Source: Alphaproteobacteria bacterium (lineage in GTDB: Bacteria > Pseudomonadota > Alphaproteobacteria > Rhodobacterales > Rhodobacteraceae). Taken from it: a DNA stretch of 40,533 bases. Every line of letters starts with the position of its first letter. Positions within the stretch are counted from its first letter, which is position 1. Positions 5,818 to 16,023 of the stretch are shown piece after piece. A program made the translations under genes and the position numbers. Below the pieces are notes generated by a model that ran no database searches, was not told where the DNA came from, and worked only from the letters and a program-made list of their open reading frames with translations. The stretch lies in assembly GCA_029289325.1 (NCBI GenBank), contig JARFTV010000039.1, positions 1 through 40,533 on the forward strand, given 5' to 3'.

Positions 5818-6558
5818 CTAAGGGTTGGTCAGCCAGTCGCTGACGCTCCGAAGCTGCGGGCGCAGGTATGCGATCATCCGACCCTCGGCCGGGGCTTCAT
5901 CCAGCGGTTTCCAGGCGGCGACGCCGTGCAGCGTCAGGCGGTGGAGGAGCGTGGCCTCACCGGGCATTGCGATTAGTTCGATCCGGCGGCAGGAGGCGAA
6001 GACCTCGCGTCGGGCCTGTTGGTAGGGGACGGTGAGGTCGATCTCGCCCCAGGTTTCGGGCGGATGCGGGGTCAGCGCCGCAAGGAGGGCCGCGCGAAGG
6101 ATCTCGTGGCTACCCTCCCAGACCGTCAGGGGGGAGGCGCCGGTCCGGTTCAGCGGAAGGCCCAGGATCCAGGCATGGGGCTCCTTGACCATGCGGCGCT
6201 TGTCGGGGCCGATGGGGAGAAGACCGTCGAGATGGGCCGCATCGCGATCGCGGCGGAAGGCGAAGGCGGCGGGCGTCTCCTCGGGCGAGGGCTGGGGATA
6301 GCCCGGGCGAATGACCGAGAGCTGCGCCCTGTGCAGGGGTTCCGGAGCAAGCGGTAGAGCCTCCCAAGGGAAGGGCGTGCTACCGATGCTGCCGTCCGGC
6401 GTATTCGGCAGCGCATCGACACCGACGAACCAGGTGCCACCGCAGCGCCACGGCTCGGCGCTGGTAGCGAGCACGATCTGCCCGGCCTCATGGGCGGACC
6501 TGGCCCAGGCAGCGATGGCCGGATGCGGACCGATCCGCCGCCAACCCCGTTCTACCAT
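5818..6558 (-). CDS. Phytanoyl-CoA dioxygenase-like 2OG-Fe(II) oxygenase (putative)
   Basis: A 246-residue protein beginning MVERGWRRIGPHPAI. It has a possible facial triad: His and Asp in RDAAHLDGLLP, a distal His in ATLLHRLTLHG, and an Arg in EGRMIAYLRP that could bind 2-oxoglutarate. Between these lies ILGLPLNRTGASPLTVWEGSHE, which resembles the core of the phytanoyl-CoA dioxygenase family, where WPGSH-type motifs are common. The substrate is unknown. The ATG at 6558 overlaps the end of the upstream permease gene by seven bases, so the two are likely co-transcribed. Confidence 0.6.
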   Translation of the reverse strand: MVERGWRRIGPHPAIAAWARSAHEAGQIVLATSAEPWRCGGTWFVGVDALPNTPDGSIGSTPFPWEALPLAPEPLHRAQLSVIRPGYPQPSPEETPAAFAFRRDRDAAHLDGLLPIGPDKRRMVKEPHAWILGLPLNRTGASPLTVWEGSHEILRAALLAALTPHPPETWGEIDLTVPYQQARREVFASCRRIELIAMPGEATLLHRLTLHGVAAWKPLDEAPAEGRMIAYLRPQLRSVSDWLTNP

Positions 6559-7370
6559 CCCAGAACCTTGCGCAGCATGTTCAAGGCGACCAGTGTGAGG
6601 AAGATCGCGAAGGCGCGTTTCAGGGGCTTGGGGTTCATCGCATGGGCCAGCCGCACGCCCAGCGGCGTGGTCAGAAGCGTCGTCCCGATCACCACCAGGA
6701 AGGCCGGCAGGTTGACTGCACCCACGGTGTAGGGCGGCGCTTCCGCGACCGGCAGGAGCAGGAAGCCGAGCACCGCCGGCACCGCGATCAGCACGCCAAA
6801 GCCCGAGGCGGTGGCGACCGCCCGGTGGATGGGCATCCCGTACAGCGTCATCAAGGGCACCCCGAAGGTGCCGCCGCCGATCCCCATCATCGCCGAGAAG
6901 AAGGCCACCGCACCCGCCAGGAGGCTGCGGACCGGCTGGCCCGGCATCGCCTGTCCCAGCCGCAAGCTGTCGCGACCGAAGGCCATCCACAGCCCTGCCA
7001 GTCCCGCAAGCACCCCGAACACCGCCTGCAATGTCATCGACGACACGCGCGTGGCGACGAAGGTCCCAACGGCGGCGGCGATCACCAGGGTCGGCCCCCA
7101 GGTCTTCAGGACTTCCCAGTCGACTGCGCCCTTCTTGTGGTGCGACGATACGGATCGGATCGACGTGATGACGATCGTCGCCATCGAGGTCGCCACACAG
7201 ACCTGCATCAGCTGGTCGCCCCCATAGCCGAGGCTGCCGAAGGCGTAAAAGAAGGCCGGGACCAGCACGATCCCGCCGCCCACGCCGAGGAGGCCCCCGA
7301 TCACCCCGGCAAAGGCGCCGATCACCAGAAGCGCGGCGAGCATCGGCAGAAGAATGGAAAGTTCGGGCAT
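6552..7370 (-). CDS. TauE/SafE (DUF81) family permease
   Basis: An integral membrane protein of 272 residues (283 if started at 7403). It has about eight helices and two internal repeats, each with a glycine-rich loop: GVIGGLLGVGGGIVLVPAF and SAMMGIGGGTFGVPLMTLYG. These are the hallmarks of TauE/SafE exporters of sulfite, sulfoacetate or other organosulfur anions. The 7370 start has AGGTG six bases upstream; 7403 has a weaker AAGGG. The substrate cannot be inferred from context; the partner gene downstream is a putative oxygenase. Confidence 0.85.
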   Translation of the reverse strand: MPELSILLPMLAALLVIGAFAGVIGGLLGVGGGIVLVPAFFYAFGSLGYGGDQLMQVCVATSMATIVITSIRSVSSHHKKGAVDWEVLKTWGPTLVIAAAVGTFVATRVSSMTLQAVFGVLAGLAGLWMAFGRDSLRLGQAMPGQPVRSLLAGAVAFFSAMMGIGGGTFGVPLMTLYGMPIHRAVATASGFGVLIAVPAVLGFLLLPVAEAPPYTVGAVNLPAFLVVIGTTLLTTPLGVRLAHAMNPKPLKRAFAIFLTLVALNMLRKVLGW

Positions 7371-7518
7371 GTCGGGCACCTGTCGCTCAAGCCATCCGGA
7401 CATAGCCCGGCCCTTGGCGGCTGACCAGTGACAAAGGCTCTGGCCAAGCTGGATACCGAATGGTATGCAGCGCCTCCGCCGAAGGCGAATACTGTCCCGT
7501 CATCCAATAGGCATCCCG

Positions 7519-10039: not shown

Positions 10040-10426
10040 ATGGCCGCGATTCGACGGTTCGGAAGGGGCGAGACTGACCGCAGAGGGTGGATCCTGCTGC
10101 GCTGCTTCGCCGTCGCGCTGGTCATTCTCGGCCTCGGCCTGACCAGCCACGTTCCGGCAGATATGCACCCCTCCCCCCACGCACATGCCCATGTGGAAAT
10201 GGCGGTTCAGCATGATCTGACAGCCGCGACCGATGGCTGCTGCGAAACCGACGGGGCTCGGCATGGCGAGGCGTGCTCCACTCATGCGCCTTGCACGATC
10301 TGCCAGCCCGGACAGACGGCCTGGCAGGTGCCCCCGCTTTCCTCTGTGTCTCTCGATGTGCCACAACCCGGGGTACCCGAGGGGCTGATCTGCGATCCAG
10401 CCAGTCGCCCACCCAAAGCCGTGTGA
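10040..10426 (+). CDS. His/Cys-rich membrane-anchored protein, DUF2946-like
   Basis: A 128-residue protein with an Arg-rich N-terminus, one helix at ~21-38 (CFAVALVILGLGLTSH) and a periplasmic tail rich in metal ligands. The tail has HPSPHAHAHVEM followed by a Cys/His cluster (CCETD, HGEAC, CTIC). This layout resembles DUF2946 proteins found beside copper genes. It is the first gene after the FNR box and may bind or deliver copper for the oxidase subunits downstream. The start at 10040 is chosen because the frame upstream is Arg/Ala-rich and lies across the FNR box. Confidence 0.65.
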   Translation: MAAIRRFGRGETDRRGWILLRCFAVALVILGLGLTSHVPADMHPSPHAHAHVEMAVQHDLTAATDGCCETDGARHGEACSTHAPCTICQPGQTAWQVPPLSSVSLDVPQPGVPEGLICDPASRPPKAV

Positions 10427-10636: not shown

Positions 10637-11350
10637 ATGACAGACAAACCCCATTTCACCACCCGACGCGGCTTCATCGCCGCGGCCGGCTTTGGCGGCA
10701 CGGCGCTTTACGGGCTCTGGGTCGGCTACGGCGCCGCACCCGGACCGCTCGCCGTGTTCGGTGCCCCCCATGGCGAGACGGCTGGGGGCCACGCGGCCCC
10801 TGTCGATGCGCAGCCGTCCAAAGCTGACACCCTGACCCCAGAGGCCTTCGAGGCGCGCGTGCGCGACTTCGTGTCCCGCTTCGGCGAGGCGGACGGGAGC
10901 GTGCGGCCCCAAGCCGGTGTCCCGAGCCAGACGGCAAAGTCTGAAGCCGCGACACATGGGTCGCATGGCGGTCATGGCGCTCACGGCAAGCAGGCTTTGG
11001 AAACGCATGCTTTCGAACCCGCTCTGGACGCGCATGCCCACCGGGCGGCCGCCGCACCGATAGATGTCTGGCTGCAGGCCGGGCAGTTCTTCTTCGAGCC
11101 GGCGCATCTGCGCCTCGCGACGGACCAGCCCTACAGGTTTCGAATGATGGCCACCGACGTCTCGCATGGCGCCTCGATCCAGTTCGGGGCCGGGGGTCGG
11201 ATGATGCGGCTTCGCCCGAACCAATTGGTCGAGACCGAAATCACCCTCCAGCGGCCCGGCGAATTCCTGATCTACTGCACCTATTATTGCGGCCCGGCGC
11301 ATGATGTCATGCAGGCCCGGCTCAGCGTGACGGAAGGGGGTGCGGCATGA
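10637..11350 (+). CDS. CuA-type cytochrome c oxidase subunit II with Tat-like signal and His-rich linker
   Basis: A 237-residue protein. The N-terminus has TTRRGFIAAAGFGG, a twin-arginine-like motif before a single hydrophobic helix. Residues ~40-140 are a flexible linker with a His-rich stretch (HGSHGGHGAHGK and DAHAH). The C-terminal cupredoxin domain keeps every CuA ligand of ba3-type subunit II: His177 (DVSHG), Cys214 and Cys218 (YCTYYCG), His222 and Met225 (AHDVM). It would accept electrons from cytochrome c or a cupredoxin and pass them to subunit I. NosZ, another CuA protein, is also Tat-exported. It overlaps subunit I by four bases (ATGA). Confidence 0.88.
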   Translation: MTDKPHFTTRRGFIAAAGFGGTALYGLWVGYGAAPGPLAVFGAPHGETAGGHAAPVDAQPSKADTLTPEAFEARVRDFVSRFGEADGSVRPQAGVPSQTAKSEAATHGSHGGHGAHGKQALETHAFEPALDAHAHRAAAAPIDVWLQAGQFFFEPAHLRLATDQPYRFRMMATDVSHGASIQFGAGGRMMRLRPNQLVETEITLQRPGEFLIYCTYYCGPAHDVMQARLSVTEGGAA

Positions 11351-12993
11351 CCCGCCCGCTGCAAGACCGCCTCGGCCGTCTGTCAGGCTCCGACCGGCTG
11401 CTGATTCAGACCATGTCCGGCATTGCCTTGATTGCCCTCGTGCTGGGCATTGCGGGCGGAATCGGCGTCGCACTGGCCCGCGCGGGCTGGACCGACCTGA
11501 TCCCGGAAAGCGGCTATCGGCTTCTCACCCTGCACGGGGTCGCGGTCTTCTTTTACTGGCTTTACCTGGCACAGGGCGCGATCCTGCTGGCACTATGCGC
11601 CGGGGAAAGCGGAGACGGGCTGCGGAGTCGCGGCCTGGCCTGGTTGGGCCTCGCGCTGATGCTGGGGGGCATGGCGCTGTCGTTGGGCGCCATCTCGGAT
11701 GGCACGCCGCTTCTTTACAATGGCACGCCGGAGCTCGCGGTCCACGAACTCGGGCGGCTGGCCCTGTTCAATGTCGGGTATGTCCTCCTTGGCCTCGGCC
11801 TGCTCGCGCTGCCCCTCGCCGGGGTGGCTACGCTGCTGTCCTCCGTCCGGCGCGCGGGGTCCCTGTCGGCCACCGGCTTTGCGCTGTTCGCATGGGCCGG
11901 GTTCCTGGGAGTGACCGGCTTCGCGCTGATCTATGTCTTCGCGCCGGGCCTCTTTTGGGCGCTGGGTTGGGGCGGCATGCCGGCGAACCACAGCACCAAC
12001 TGGCACATCGTCTTTCACAACATGCATTACCTGCCGCTGATGGCCACGGTCATCATCTGGTATGTGCTGATGCAGGACCTGCTCGGGGTGAAATCGGTCT
12101 TCGGCGCCCGGTTCTCGAAGCTGGTTTTCGCGGCCTATCTCGTCTTCGTGCCACCAACCTCGCTTTACCACATGTTCCTCGAGCCCGACCTGCCGGGCGC
12201 GGTGCGCATCGCGGGATCGCTGCTGTCGCTCTTCGTCAGTGTGCCGACGCTCACCGCCTTCCTGATCATCGTGGCCTCGATCGAGCTTCATGCCCGCAGT
12301 CGCGGTGGACGCGGGCTGTTCGGCTGGATCCGGATGCTTCCCTGGCATGAGCCCGCCATGGCCGCCGCGGGCCTTGCGATGGTGAACATGGCCTTTGGCA
12401 TCACGCTGGCCTTCGTCCTGATCCAGGCCGATCTGGCGCCGCTTCTGTCGGATACGTTCTTCGTGCCGGGGTATTTCCACTTCTTCACGGTGGGAACGGT
12501 CTCGCTCAGCCTGCTTGCCGCCCTTGCGCTGATCCTGCCTGCCCTGTCCGGGCGGGGATTGGCCCTGCCCCGCCTGGTGCGCTTTGCCCCGCATCTGGCC
12601 ACGCTGGGGCTTCTGGCCTTTGGCGGAGCCGGGGTCGTGGCAGGATATCTGGGCGTGCCGCGCCGGGTGATCGATGCAGGCTATGGCGGCGAGGCCCCTG
12701 CCCTCTGGTCCGCGCTGATGGGCTGGGTCGCCGCCGGCGGAGTGCTGATGGCGCTGGCGCTGATCGCCTTCGCGCTTTCCGTCGCCGCGACCCTGCTGCC
12801 CCTGCAGGCGCGGCGGGCTGCCCCGCCGCCGCACTGGGACGCAGTCGTCCAGCCCCGACCGGGGACTGCTGCTCTGATCGGGCCGCTCGCCGTGCTGGTG
12901 ATCGTCCTCGGCATGTATGGCGCGACCGCGGCCGGGTTCCAGATCATGCGCTCCTTGCCGATCGCGGCGGCGGGTGGCGGCCACGCCCATTGA
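11347..12993 (+). CDS. Heme-copper oxidase subunit I-like protein, ba3-type family, with altered active-site ligands
   Basis: A 548-residue membrane protein with about 14 helices. It aligns with the B-type (ba3) family through blocks such as SRGGRGLFGWIRMLPW, LFVSVPTLTAFLIIV and GYLGVPRRVI. The low-spin heme ligands His63 (LHGVAVFF) and His378 are present. In helix VI, HNMHY gives His224 as a CuB ligand and Tyr228 at the His-Tyr crosslink position. In helix VII the CuB pair His-His reads Tyr274-His275 (LYHMF). In helix X, HFH reads Tyr376-Phe-His378 (VPGYFHFF), which replaces the proximal His of the high-spin heme. Raw codons (TAC at 12166, TAT at 12472) confirm both. Activity could be O2 or NO chemistry, or electron transfer only. 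Confidence 0.88.
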   Translation: MTRPLQDRLGRLSGSDRLLIQTMSGIALIALVLGIAGGIGVALARAGWTDLIPESGYRLLTLHGVAVFFYWLYLAQGAILLALCAGESGDGLRSRGLAWLGLALMLGGMALSLGAISDGTPLLYNGTPELAVHELGRLALFNVGYVLLGLGLLALPLAGVATLLSSVRRAGSLSATGFALFAWAGFLGVTGFALIYVFAPGLFWALGWGGMPANHSTNWHIVFHNMHYLPLMATVIIWYVLMQDLLGVKSVFGARFSKLVFAAYLVFVPPTSLYHMFLEPDLPGAVRIAGSLLSLFVSVPTLTAFLIIVASIELHARSRGGRGLFGWIRMLPWHEPAMAAAGLAMVNMAFGITLAFVLIQADLAPLLSDTFFVPGYFHFFTVGTVSLSLLAALALILPALSGRGLALPRLVRFAPHLATLGLLAFGGAGVVAGYLGVPRRVIDAGYGGEAPALWSALMGWVAAGGVLMALALIAFALSVAATLLPLQARRAAPPPHWDAVVQPRPGTAALIGPLAVLVIVLGMYGATAAGFQIMRSLPIAAAGGGHAH

Positions 12994-13003
12994 AGGAAAG
13001 GAA

Positions 13004-13201
13004 ATGGACATGAAATTCGACACGATCCTCATCTTCACCATTGCCGGCGTCTGGTCCGCCCTTGCCCTTGCCTATGCTCTCGCGCCTTGGCCGGGGATGA
13101 TTGGCTACGCCTGGGTCTGGGGCTTCGGCGCGACCCTTTTCCTGGGGCTCGGGATGGCCCTTCGAGCCGCAGGAAGGCGCGCAGAGAGGGCTGAGCAATG
13201 A
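13004..13201 (+). CDS. Two-helix small membrane protein of the oxidase block
   Basis: A 65-residue protein beginning MDMKFDTILIF. It has two hydrophobic helices (residues ~5-26 and ~32-54) joined by APWPGM and ends in a basic tail. The ribosome site AAGGAAAGGA is strong. It lies 10 bp after subunit I and is a good candidate for a small accessory subunit, like the short subunit IIa of ba3 oxidases, although I see no sequence identity that proves this. Confidence 0.7.
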   Translation: MDMKFDTILIFTIAGVWSALALAYALAPWPGMIGYAWVWGFGATLFLGLGMALRAAGRRAERAEQ

Positions 13202-13263
13202 ACACGACCCCGGATCTTGCCGACAGGCCGGAACCACAAACTCTGCAAACGAAGGAAACGACG

Positions 13264-13818
13264 ATGAAGACGTTCACGACATGGGCCATGGCCCTTGGTG
13301 GCGCGGTCCTTCTGGGGAGCAGCGTCTTGGCGCAGACAACCGATGACGGCCACGCCGAGCATCATCCCGACACGGCAGAGCCAGCGGCCGAAGCAGAGGC
13401 TCCCACTGGGGACGGCCCCGCACTGCCCGGCATGGGCATGATGACGCCGGAAATGATGCAGATGATGCACGGCATGATGATGGGCGCTGGAAACCCGTCC
13501 GGCATGATGGCCTGCCCCGGGATGCAGGGCGGTCCGGCCAGCATGGCGATGCCGGGAATCGCCGGGCAGACCCCACAAGGCCCACAAGCCTTCCTGTTCG
13601 GAGCGCCGCTTGACGCGCCCGAGGAAATGACGGTGGATCGGGTGCGGGCCTTGCTGGAAGACGAGCTCGCGATGCTGGGCAATCCCCGCCTGAAGCTCGG
13701 CGACATCAGCGCCGCGGACGATGGCAGCATCATCGCCGAGATTCTGACCGTGGATGACTCATTGGTCCAGAAACTCGCGTTCAACCGTTACCCCGGTCTC
13801 GTGCGCCAGATCGACTGA
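13264..13818 (+). CDS. Met/His-rich periplasmic copper-binding protein
   Basis: A 184-residue exported protein. The signal peptide MKTFTTWAMALGGAVLLGSS ends in VLAQ. It is followed by an acidic, His-containing linker (DDGHAEHHPD) and a Met-rich core (PGMGMMTPEMMQMMHGMMM, then GMMACPGM) suited to Cu(I) binding. The C-terminal domain (~120-184, DRVRALLEDELAMLGNPRLK ... VQKLAFNRYPG) looks like an alphaproteobacterial PepSY-like module seen in other Met-rich proteins. The start at 13264 has GAAGGA upstream. An ATG at 13198 overlapping the previous stop would put 22 polar residues before the signal, so it was not used. Confidence 0.8.
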   Translation: MKTFTTWAMALGGAVLLGSSVLAQTTDDGHAEHHPDTAEPAAEAEAPTGDGPALPGMGMMTPEMMQMMHGMMMGAGNPSGMMACPGMQGGPASMAMPGIAGQTPQGPQAFLFGAPLDAPEEMTVDRVRALLEDELAMLGNPRLKLGDISAADDGSIIAEILTVDDSLVQKLAFNRYPGLVRQID

Positions 13819-13890: not shown

Positions 13891-16023
13891 ATGACCCATG
13901 ATCCACTGCAGGACCATTCCAGACACCACGGTCCGCCCGGCCATGGGCATCATGGCGTCACGACGACCCAGCCGCAGGGGCAGACCGGCCACGGCGGGCA
14001 TGGGGGCCATGACCACTCGGTCATGGTCGCCGATTTCCGTCGCCGCTTCTGGGTGACCCTCGTCCTCACACCGCCGGTTCTGCTGCTGTCGCCGATGATC
14101 CAGCACTGGTTCGGTCTGGCAGACACCCTGCGTTTCAGCGGCGACAGCTATGTCCTCTTCACGCTTTCGACCATCGCCTATCTCTACGGCGGCTGGCCGT
14201 TCCTGACCGGGTTCACCGCAGAGCTGCGCAAGGGCCAGCCGGGGATGATGACGCTGATCGCGCTCGCGATCTCCGCCGCCTATCTCTTTTCGGCAGCCGT
14301 GACCTTCGGCTTTCCGGGTGAGGAGTTCTACTGGGAACTGGTCACGCTGATCGCGATCATGCTGCTTGGCCACTGGATCGAGATGCGGTCGGTCATGGGC
14401 GCGTCGCGGGCGCTGGAAGAACTTGTCCGGCTGCTACCGGACAGCGCCACGCGGCTGGCCCCGGACGGCACTCCGGAAGAGGTGCCGATCACTGCGCTCA
14501 CGCCGGGTGATCGGGTGCTGGTGCGGCCCGGCGCGAAGGTGCCGGTAGATGGACGGATCATCGAAGGCGCCTCTGCCTTCAACGAGGCGATGCTCACCGG
14601 AGAATCGCGCCCTGTGTCCAAGGCGGCAGGAGCAACGGCCATCGGCGGTGCGATCAACGGGGCCAACGCCGTCACGATCGAGGTCACCGCAACCGGCGAC
14701 GCCACCTATCTTGCGCAGGTCATCGACCTGGTCAGGAAGGCGCAGGCCACCCGGTCCCGGACCCAGGATCTTGCCAACCGCGCCGCGTCCTGGCTGACCT
14801 ACATCGCCCTGACCGTCGGTTTCGGAACGCTGTTCGTCTGGTGGCTGGTGCTTGATGCGCCAATCGCCTTCGCGATGGAGCGGATGGTGACGGTCATGGT
14901 GGTTGCCTGCCCGCATGCGCTTGGCCTTGCCGTGCCGCTGGTGGTGGCGGTCAGCACCTCGCTTTCCGCAGGCAATGGCCTCCTCATCCGCGACCGCGCC
15001 GCTTTCGAACGGGCGCGCAACCTTGACACGGTGGTGTTCGACAAGACCGGCACGCTGACCGAGGGGCGTTTCGGCGTCAGCGACATCGTCCTTCTGGACG
15101 GCGGCGACGAGACGACCGAGCTTGCCTTTGCGGCGGCGGCCGAAAGCCAGTCGGAGCATCCGATCGCGCATGGCATCGTTGCCGAGGCCCGGTCCCGCGG
15201 TCTGACCATTCCCAAGGCAAGCGCGGTCAGCAACATCACCGGCGAAGGCATCGTCGCCGAGGTCGACGGCCAGGATCTGCGCATCGTCAGCCCCGGGCAT
15301 CTGGCGCGCCAGGGCAAGCCCATTGCGCATGAGGGGCTGAAGCGACTTGAAGGCGAGGGCAAGACGGTCGTCGTCCTGCTGCGCGACGGGGTGCCGCGCG
15401 CCCTCTTCGCGCTGGCCGACATCCTGCGCCCGGAATCGCGCGCGGCCATCGACGAACTGATGTCGCTCGGCATCACGTCGGTCATGCTGACGGGGGACGC
15501 CGAAGGCGTGGCGCGGACGGTGTCCCGGGACCTTGGCATCACCGAATTCTTCGCCGAAGTCCTGCCCGACCAGAAGTCGCAGAAGATCGAGGAACTGCAG
15601 GCGCGCGGCCGCATCGTTGCGATGGTCGGGGACGGCGTCAACGACGCCCCGGCGCTTGTCGTCGCGGACCTTGGAATCGCCATTGGCGCGGGAACAGACG
15701 TCGCCGTGGAATCCGCTGATGTCGTGCTCGTCCGCAGCGACCCGCGCGACGTGGCAGCCATCCTGAGCCTGTCGCGGGCAACCTATCGCAAGATGGTCCA
15801 GAACCTCATTTGGGCGACGGCCTATAATGCCATTGCCGTGCCGATGGCGGCGGGCGTGACCTTTGGCACCGGCTTCATGATGACCCCCGCCGTGGCGGCC
15901 GTGTTCATGTCCGCAAGCACCGTCATCGTCGCCATCAACGCCCAGTTCCTGCGATCCTACAGGAGGCATGGACGAGTCATCGCCTCACACGGACGTCCGC
16001 CGAGTGCCTTGCCGACATCCTGA
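13891..16023 (+). CDS. copB: Copper-translocating P1B-type ATPase with CPH motif (CopB-like)
   Basis: A 710-residue heavy-metal pump. The cytoplasmic N-terminus is His/Gly-rich (HSRHHGPPGHGHHG, GHGGHGGHDH) and has no CxxC domain. The actuator loop has MLTGES. The transport motif is Cys340-Pro-His342 (VACPHALGLAVPL), which is the P1B-3 (CopB) type and is linked with Cu2+, Cu+ or Ag+ rather than the CPC of CopA. Asp384 in DKTGTLTEG is the phosphorylation site; SEHPIAHGI is the HP motif; MVGDGVNDAPAL is the hinge. Its place after the oxidase and Cu-binding genes suggests it loads or clears copper in the periplasm for this system. Confidence 0.93.
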   Translation: MTHDPLQDHSRHHGPPGHGHHGVTTTQPQGQTGHGGHGGHDHSVMVADFRRRFWVTLVLTPPVLLLSPMIQHWFGLADTLRFSGDSYVLFTLSTIAYLYGGWPFLTGFTAELRKGQPGMMTLIALAISAAYLFSAAVTFGFPGEEFYWELVTLIAIMLLGHWIEMRSVMGASRALEELVRLLPDSATRLAPDGTPEEVPITALTPGDRVLVRPGAKVPVDGRIIEGASAFNEAMLTGESRPVSKAAGATAIGGAINGANAVTIEVTATGDATYLAQVIDLVRKAQATRSRTQDLANRAASWLTYIALTVGFGTLFVWWLVLDAPIAFAMERMVTVMVVACPHALGLAVPLVVAVSTSLSAGNGLLIRDRAAFERARNLDTVVFDKTGTLTEGRFGVSDIVLLDGGDETTELAFAAAAESQSEHPIAHGIVAEARSRGLTIPKASAVSNITGEGIVAEVDGQDLRIVSPGHLARQGKPIAHEGLKRLEGEGKTVVVLLRDGVPRALFALADILRPESRAAIDELMSLGITSVMLTGDAEGVARTVSRDLGITEFFAEVLPDQKSQKIEELQARGRIVAMVGDGVNDAPALVVADLGIAIGAGTDVAVESADVVLVRSDPRDVAAILSLSRATYRKMVQNLIWATAYNAIAVPMAAGVTFGTGFMMTPAVAAVFMSASTVIVAINAQFLRSYRRHGRVIASHGRPPSALPTS

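Follow-up and report, generated by a model that had tools for sequence, protein, structure and literature searches.

Genes and ligands at the locus

The genes considered here lie in the window, i.e. the whole 40,533-nucleotide stretch of alphaproteobacterial DNA that was analysed, and include a CuA-bearing subunit II, a subunit I, a small membrane subunit, a Met-rich protein and a P-type ATPase, which we take to be of the copper-exporter type (Table 1). An earlier note on this DNA had described the first two as a ba3-type oxidase with intact electron entry and two replaced active-site ligands, and rereading of the sequence gave the same ORF positions and the same two Tyr codons. Pfam and NCBIfam searches gave no match for the Met-rich protein. 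Read by eye, short ORFs resembling the small Cys/His-rich ORF of the window precede subunit II in several other loci, and TauE/SafE-resembling ORFs are found near some Azospirillum loci.

Table 1. Coordinates of the genes and key codons in the window
Feature	Positions	Strand	Basis or remark
Sulfite exporter TauE/SafE family gene, upstream	6552..7403	-	
Small ORF with Cys/His-rich stretch, upstream	10040..10426		Pfam search without match
Subunit II	10637..11350	+	Start ATG 10637; GTG 10601 upstream is a possible alternative start
Subunit I, haem-copper-oxidase fold, 548 aa	11347..12993	+	ORF reading, alignment, fold matches
Codon CAT, His227, family-invariant	12025..12027	+	Direct reading, family rows
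Codon TAC, Tyr274 (ba3 CuB ligand His282 replaced)	12166..12168	+	Direct reading, alignment
Codon TAT, Tyr376 (ba3 haem-a3 proximal His384 replaced)	12472..12474	+	Direct reading, alignment
Small membrane subunit, about 65 aa	13004..13201	+	Homologues in family loci
Met-rich protein, signal-like start	13198..13818	+	Related ORFs in loci L002 and L005
P-type ATPase, His-rich N-terminus	13891..16023	+	Pfam E1-E2_ATPase and Hydrolase

Subunit II is composed of an N-terminal TTRRGF anchor helix, a His-rich linker and a CuA cupredoxin domain, whose ligands His177, Cys214, Cys218, His222 and Met225 have aligned counterparts in the ba3 CuA domain and are invariant in all 74 subunit II rows (two of them second copies from the same genomes). 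Profile comparison of subunit II gives Thermus CuA domain 2cua as a match (E 4.7e-16) and the CuA domain of nitrous-oxide reductases as a weaker one. In the AF2 model (overall pTM 0.62), residues 10-30 and 68-82 are helical, and a beta domain with pLDDT mostly above 90 starts at 142.

The Pfam model PF00115 (COX1) scores 114.7 bits on subunit I, for a cut-off of 34.8, and fold matches agree with a COX1 fold of 12 helices; pLDDT in the AF2 model is lower near 271-300 and 351-370. In the phmmer alignment with Thermus ba3 (best match 4g71, E 7.8e-24), the ba3 motif HHQF pairs with YHMF and VPGHFH with VPGYFH, with no gap at either motif. Two ligands are thereby replaced, ba3 His282 by Tyr274 at CuB and His384 by Tyr376 at the proximal side of haem a3, and four positions are retained, His283 as His275, His386 as His378, His233 as His224 and Tyr237 as Tyr228, the ba3 numbers being those that we take to apply to the matched positions. 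The low-spin haem ligands His63 and His378 are intact, so that the six-His hallmark set is represented by His63, His224, His275 and His378, the other two being Tyr274 and Tyr376. The electron entry, the retained residues and the two replacements are thus as the earlier note had read them. That some other His might take over as ligand through a misalignment, an alternative which that note had raised, has been rejected since the motifs pair gap-free; besides the known ligands, the only His present in 85% or more of the subunit I rows are His227, His220 (76/84) and the C-terminal residue.

The cross-link position, four residues past the first CuB His, is Tyr in 84/84 rows (window included), which makes Tyr228 a candidate cross-link Tyr by position. 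As for the K-path analogue, which we take to comprise Tyr244, Tyr248, Thr302, Ser309 and Thr312 in ba3, Tyr239, Ser294 and Thr301 are retained, and Val235 and Ala304 stand at the positions of ba3 Tyr244 and Thr312.

Conservation of the two tyrosines

The earlier note had raised the question whether homologues share both Tyr, and they do. A contig scan by six search peptides, from which 80 loci were kept of 101 relatives, and the pattern-free search of the own bacterial family described below gave 83 family loci with 80 distinct sequences, all of which have Tyr274 together with Tyr376; positions 224, 227, 228, 274, 275, 376, 377 and 378 read H, H, Y, Y, H, Y, F and H in 83/83. Two of the six search peptides included a Tyr, which favours Tyr in retrieval, but if the Tyr274 peptide is left out 75 of the 80 scan loci can still be retrieved, as can 36 if the Tyr376 peptide is omitted and 21 if both are. 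Moreover, among 198 genomes of the own bacterial family, a pattern-free search found the own genome and three close relatives (identical to L007, L033 and L078), and a profile search through 385 genomes of the class added five members to the own genome. All five are Tyr/Tyr; two of them (L157, L158) repeat L060 and L063, and three (L160, L161, L162) are new. The peptide-free searches thus gave eight loci, 8/8 Tyr/Tyr, five of which repeat scan sequences. In the class search, family members scored at least 512 bits (336 for the second piece of one split member), as against at most 186 bits for eNOR-like genes, a label used here for Gln at the Tyr position. Among 398 genomes sampled from the phylum a close relative was found in the own genome only, and the family is therefore rare; its carrier records include Rhodobacterales, Azospirillum, Rhodoferax, Hydrogenophaga, Azoarcus, Thioalkalivibrio and Nitrincola, among others, and the species Azospirillum brasilense and Hydrogenophaga pseudoflava are among the carriers.

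No one-Tyr intermediate was found among the rows read, and the 53 outside relatives (47 eNOR-like and 6 ba3-like, with five weaker matches each from the phylum and class searches excluded) all have both His, position 368 being His in 53/53 as well. A decayed, misassembled or misread ba3 gene, a reading to which the loss of two hallmark ligands could lend itself and which the earlier note had tied to homologues with both His, is refuted by the shared Tyr pair, the open frames and the conserved partners and keeps virtually no probability: such homologues are found outside the family, and every member of it examined is Tyr/Tyr.

No NCBIfam model matches subunit I at E 0.001. According to the methods section of PMC3084760, a classifier of haem-copper oxidases discarded sequences without the six conserved His, and it is because of this filter and the missing NCBIfam model that the family would have been overlooked. 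Among the literature matches listed, a scope that leaves subscription papers aside, no published account of the Tyr/Tyr family was recognised.

Pocket, neighbourhood and possible function

The surroundings of the high-spin haem have been compared in 32 family rows and 19 outside rows (12 eNOR-like, including L134, and 7 ba3-like). Besides the two Tyr, H63, H224, N225, H227, Y228, H275, H378, A364, S368 and D369 are invariant in 76 rows, and the His, Tyr and Asp of this set also in the 84-row alignment. At position 368 the family has Ser and 19/19 outside rows have His (ba3 His376); position 364 is Ala in the family and Asn or Asp outside (ba3 Asp372), and position 369 Asp in the family versus Asn. 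Position 355, in helix IX, is Ala or Ser in the family and Gly in 19/19 outside rows, position 354 is Phe or Leu in the family and Thr, Gly or Ser outside, and position 352 is mixed (Gly in 14/32 family rows and in 19/19 outside), so that the helix-IX change is not uniform. Furthermore, position 223 is Phe in the family and Gly in 15/19 outside rows, and position 227 is His in the family, Gln in 47/47 eNOR-like rows and Val in 6/6 ba3-like rows (mutant 4g71 omitted). Several of the changed positions are presumably high-spin-haem contacts or oxygen-path lining in ba3/aa3 enzymes, and we take ba3 Gly232 and Val236 to line the oxygen channel. Phe223 and His227 occupy these last two positions, the sites of the ba3 mutants G232V and V236x according to PDB titles. 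The low-spin side is unchanged (His63, His378, Arg439, Arg440).

Since further pocket positions are altered, the two Tyr are part of a change that involved the pocket as a whole, and since the positions of ba3 Asp372, His376 and the helix-IX Gly are replaced too, the high-spin haem may be gone; judged from the alignments, its loss would be at least as likely as a haem ligated by Tyr. The earlier note had not listed these additional positions, nor the invariant His227 (in the motif HNxHY), which lies close to the CuB position, Met232 and Met276. The last residue of subunit I (12988-12990 in the window) is His in 81/84 rows, often as GGH or HxH, and His227, Met232, Met276 and this C-terminal His are possible further copper ligands.

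The partners of subunit I are conserved. Homologues of subunit II are found in 74 loci and of the small subunit in 70 (84 counted including the window, three loci doubled), the latter as a rule directly downstream of subunit I. The subunit II linker is His/Met-rich and in L019 (5117-5995) consists over a long stretch of MDHG-type His/Met repeats, which we take to be copper-binding in style and which are possibly a copper store. Pfam neighbours in example loci include a P-type ATPase, multicopper oxidase, plastocyanin-like cupredoxin, CusF, DUF411 and DUF2933, as well as ICMT, an LTXXQ protein and a response regulator; CusAB (by eye) and Met-rich proteins likewise recur. About half of the loci lie in a copper neighbourhood: with nine marker queries, matches were found in the flanks of 43/81 family loci (the 80 scan loci and the window) and in 1/20 control flanks (19 eNOR-like, 1 ba3-like), and with flanks of at least 10 kb in 39/61 and 1/19, respectively (Fisher 8e-6), a contrast that is biased upward by the choice of queries from the family's own recurrent neighbours and by the relatedness of the loci. 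The single control match is the lone ba3-like flank, the eNOR-like flanks giving 0/19.

None of the nine markers was found in the flanks scanned of the remaining 38/81 loci, including the whole of an uncultured gammaproteobacterial group (L064, L066, L070, L075, L079, L080). This group has a conserved neighbourhood of its own, with BNR-like, MBL-fold and TlpA-like ORFs nearby (by eye), and the complex possibly has a different role there.

A second association is with denitrification. Scored as TIGR04244 over its cut-off, nosZ was found in 21/42 host genomes chosen for spread from the 80 scan loci, in 51/197 genomes of the own bacterial family, including 4/4 carriers, and in 43/299 phylum genomes (own genome included). 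Deduplicated Rhodobacterales carriers have it in 12/13 cases versus 47/193 controls (Fisher 1e-6), where the carriers are 11 of the 42 chosen hosts plus G000 and G012 (G121 and G156, the L033 and L078 genomes, being counted once) and the controls are the 197 own-family genomes minus four carriers, on the assumption that the named carriers belong to that same family. Among the 21 hosts without an over-cut-off nosZ, three (G592, G601 and G608) show matches that are long but weaker and may represent another nosZ clade. In L004 (5279-13641), subunits II, I and III directly precede ORFs read as nosR, nosZ and nosD, the position of NosZ being consistent with the match found over the cut-off in the L004 genome; NosR and NosZ queries gave no match in the other 80 of the 81 loci scanned. 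An NsrR-like regulator was read by eye upstream of the three-gene unit of L004, which in this one locus is directly connected with N2O reduction.

We tentatively interpret these results as a distinct haem-copper-oxidase family whose members form a CuA/haem-b membrane complex for copper redox chemistry, without the standard haem/CuB centre for O2 or NO. The CuA subunit, subunit I and the small subunit would act together in copper homeostasis. The CuA and low-spin haem sites would be retained, the latter presumably with haem b, and the high-spin haem would be altered or lost, the old active site holding copper by means of His224, His227, His275, Tyr228 and perhaps Tyr274. The His/Met-rich linker of subunit II would gather periplasmic Cu(I), the probable substrate, which would be oxidised, and electrons would travel via CuA and haem b to, or possibly from, the respiratory chain. 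The guess of copper chemistry in the earlier note is favoured by the genes around the loci. The most specific version, in which a mononuclear copper site, formed by three His together with one or two Tyr, has replaced the high-spin haem and in which CuA and haem b tie copper oxidation or reduction to respiration, is possible and in itself rather doubtful.

The earlier note had also envisaged a Tyr-bound high-spin haem. Such a haem would have Tyr376 as proximal ligand, as in catalases, opposite a copper site, with O2, peroxide or superoxide chemistry, for example in the disposal of oxidants arising from copper stress. Invariant Tyr376 occupies precisely the proximal position, Arg439-Arg440, Tyr228 and part of the proton-path set (Tyr239 in 83/84 rows, Thr301, Ser294) are retained, and the copper context would suit such a role, but the changes of ba3 His376 to Ser, Asp372 to Ala and Gly to Ala/Ser at 355, and the bulkier Phe223 and His227 at the Gly232 and Val236 positions, speak against this proposal, and we regard it as somewhat unlikely.

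The nosZ association could point to a denitrification role in place of a copper role. The complex may be a structural or assembly factor, i.e. a silent CuA/haem protein delivering or sensing copper for NosZ, NirK or CuA/CuB in denitrifiers, as the enrichment of nosZ in the hosts and the L004 arrangement would suggest; this is unlikely, given that half of the chosen hosts are without an over-cut-off nosZ, that adjacency to nos genes occurs in 1/81 loci and that invariant redox-site residues suit catalysis better than scaffolding. A new type of nitric oxide (or other N-oxide) reductase, related to eNOR, is very unlikely, for despite the kinship with eNOR-like enzymes and the frequent nosZ, the marker position is Tyr and not Gln, Asn, Asp or Glu, the proximal His and one CuB His are missing, and a further COX1 match of the own genome, in a frame of 453 aa, may be a cNOR; the NO chemistry suggested in the earlier note has found no positive support, frequent as nosZ is among carriers.

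The six His ligands are used as a criterion for admission to the superfamily, and a conserved family that lacks two of them and has its electron entry intact means that the scaffold has been reused. In the Tyr/Tyr family, nature has in this sense already run the experiment of removing the proximal His and the third CuB His, from which their roles may be learned. If the copper role is true, respiration and metal defence are connected in a way not seen before, and if the copper-redox interpretation holds, denitrifiers would gain a copper defence without a soluble multicopper oxidase.

Relation to known haem-copper and copper enzymes

In a quick maximum-likelihood tree of 51 rows, a long branch (length 2.9, SH-aLRT 100) sets the 32 family rows apart from 12 eNOR-like and 7 ba3-like rows; since the program also issued a warning that long branches meet, the deeper placement is unsure. 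The ba3 (B-family) cytochrome c oxidases are among the nearest solved folds, with 25% identity to Thermus thermophilus 1ehk and 22% to Aquifex 7deg in structural alignments, and share with the family the CuA subunit II and the Tyr at the cross-link position. The family differs from them in Tyr274 and Tyr376 for two of the six His, and in His227, Ser368 and Ala364. The designation ba3-type therefore stands as regards the fold, but not as a class assignment, the family being a separate long-branched clade which does not conform to the six-His rule. Four further COX1 matches in the own genome exceed the cut-off; respiration is therefore probably covered elsewhere, and the Tyr/Tyr complex is probably not its sole oxidase.

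The eNOR-like enzymes are the best-scoring non-family relatives in most Pseudomonadota genomes with a match, at about 24-30% identity, and have the six His plus Gln at 228 in 47/47 rows, whereas the family has Tyr228 and two His missing. Their subunit I genes (L085-L091, L100-L128, L163-L171) recur in the Pseudomonadota draws, including the own bacterial family. To our knowledge, no Tyr proximal ligand occurs in bNOR, sNOR, gNOR or nNOR. These four are described in PMC11388526 as B-family-related NO reductases, bNOR having once been named CuANOR. The marker of eNOR is given as Gln at alignment position 323, i.e. the Tyr position (PMC8756737), where sNOR has Asn, gNOR Asp and both cNOR and qNOR Glu (Table A4 of the same paper). 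With Tyr228, the family falls outside eNOR, sNOR, gNOR, cNOR and qNOR, sNOR and gNOR being set apart by these published marker residues; a plain O2 reductase or a NOR of one of these five types has been rejected on the ligand and marker residues.

Finally, the job proposed for the complex is that of the multicopper oxidases CopA/CueO, periplasmic Cu(I) oxidases which are encoded nearby in 8/81 loci. These are soluble proteins of an unrelated fold, with neither haem nor CuA.
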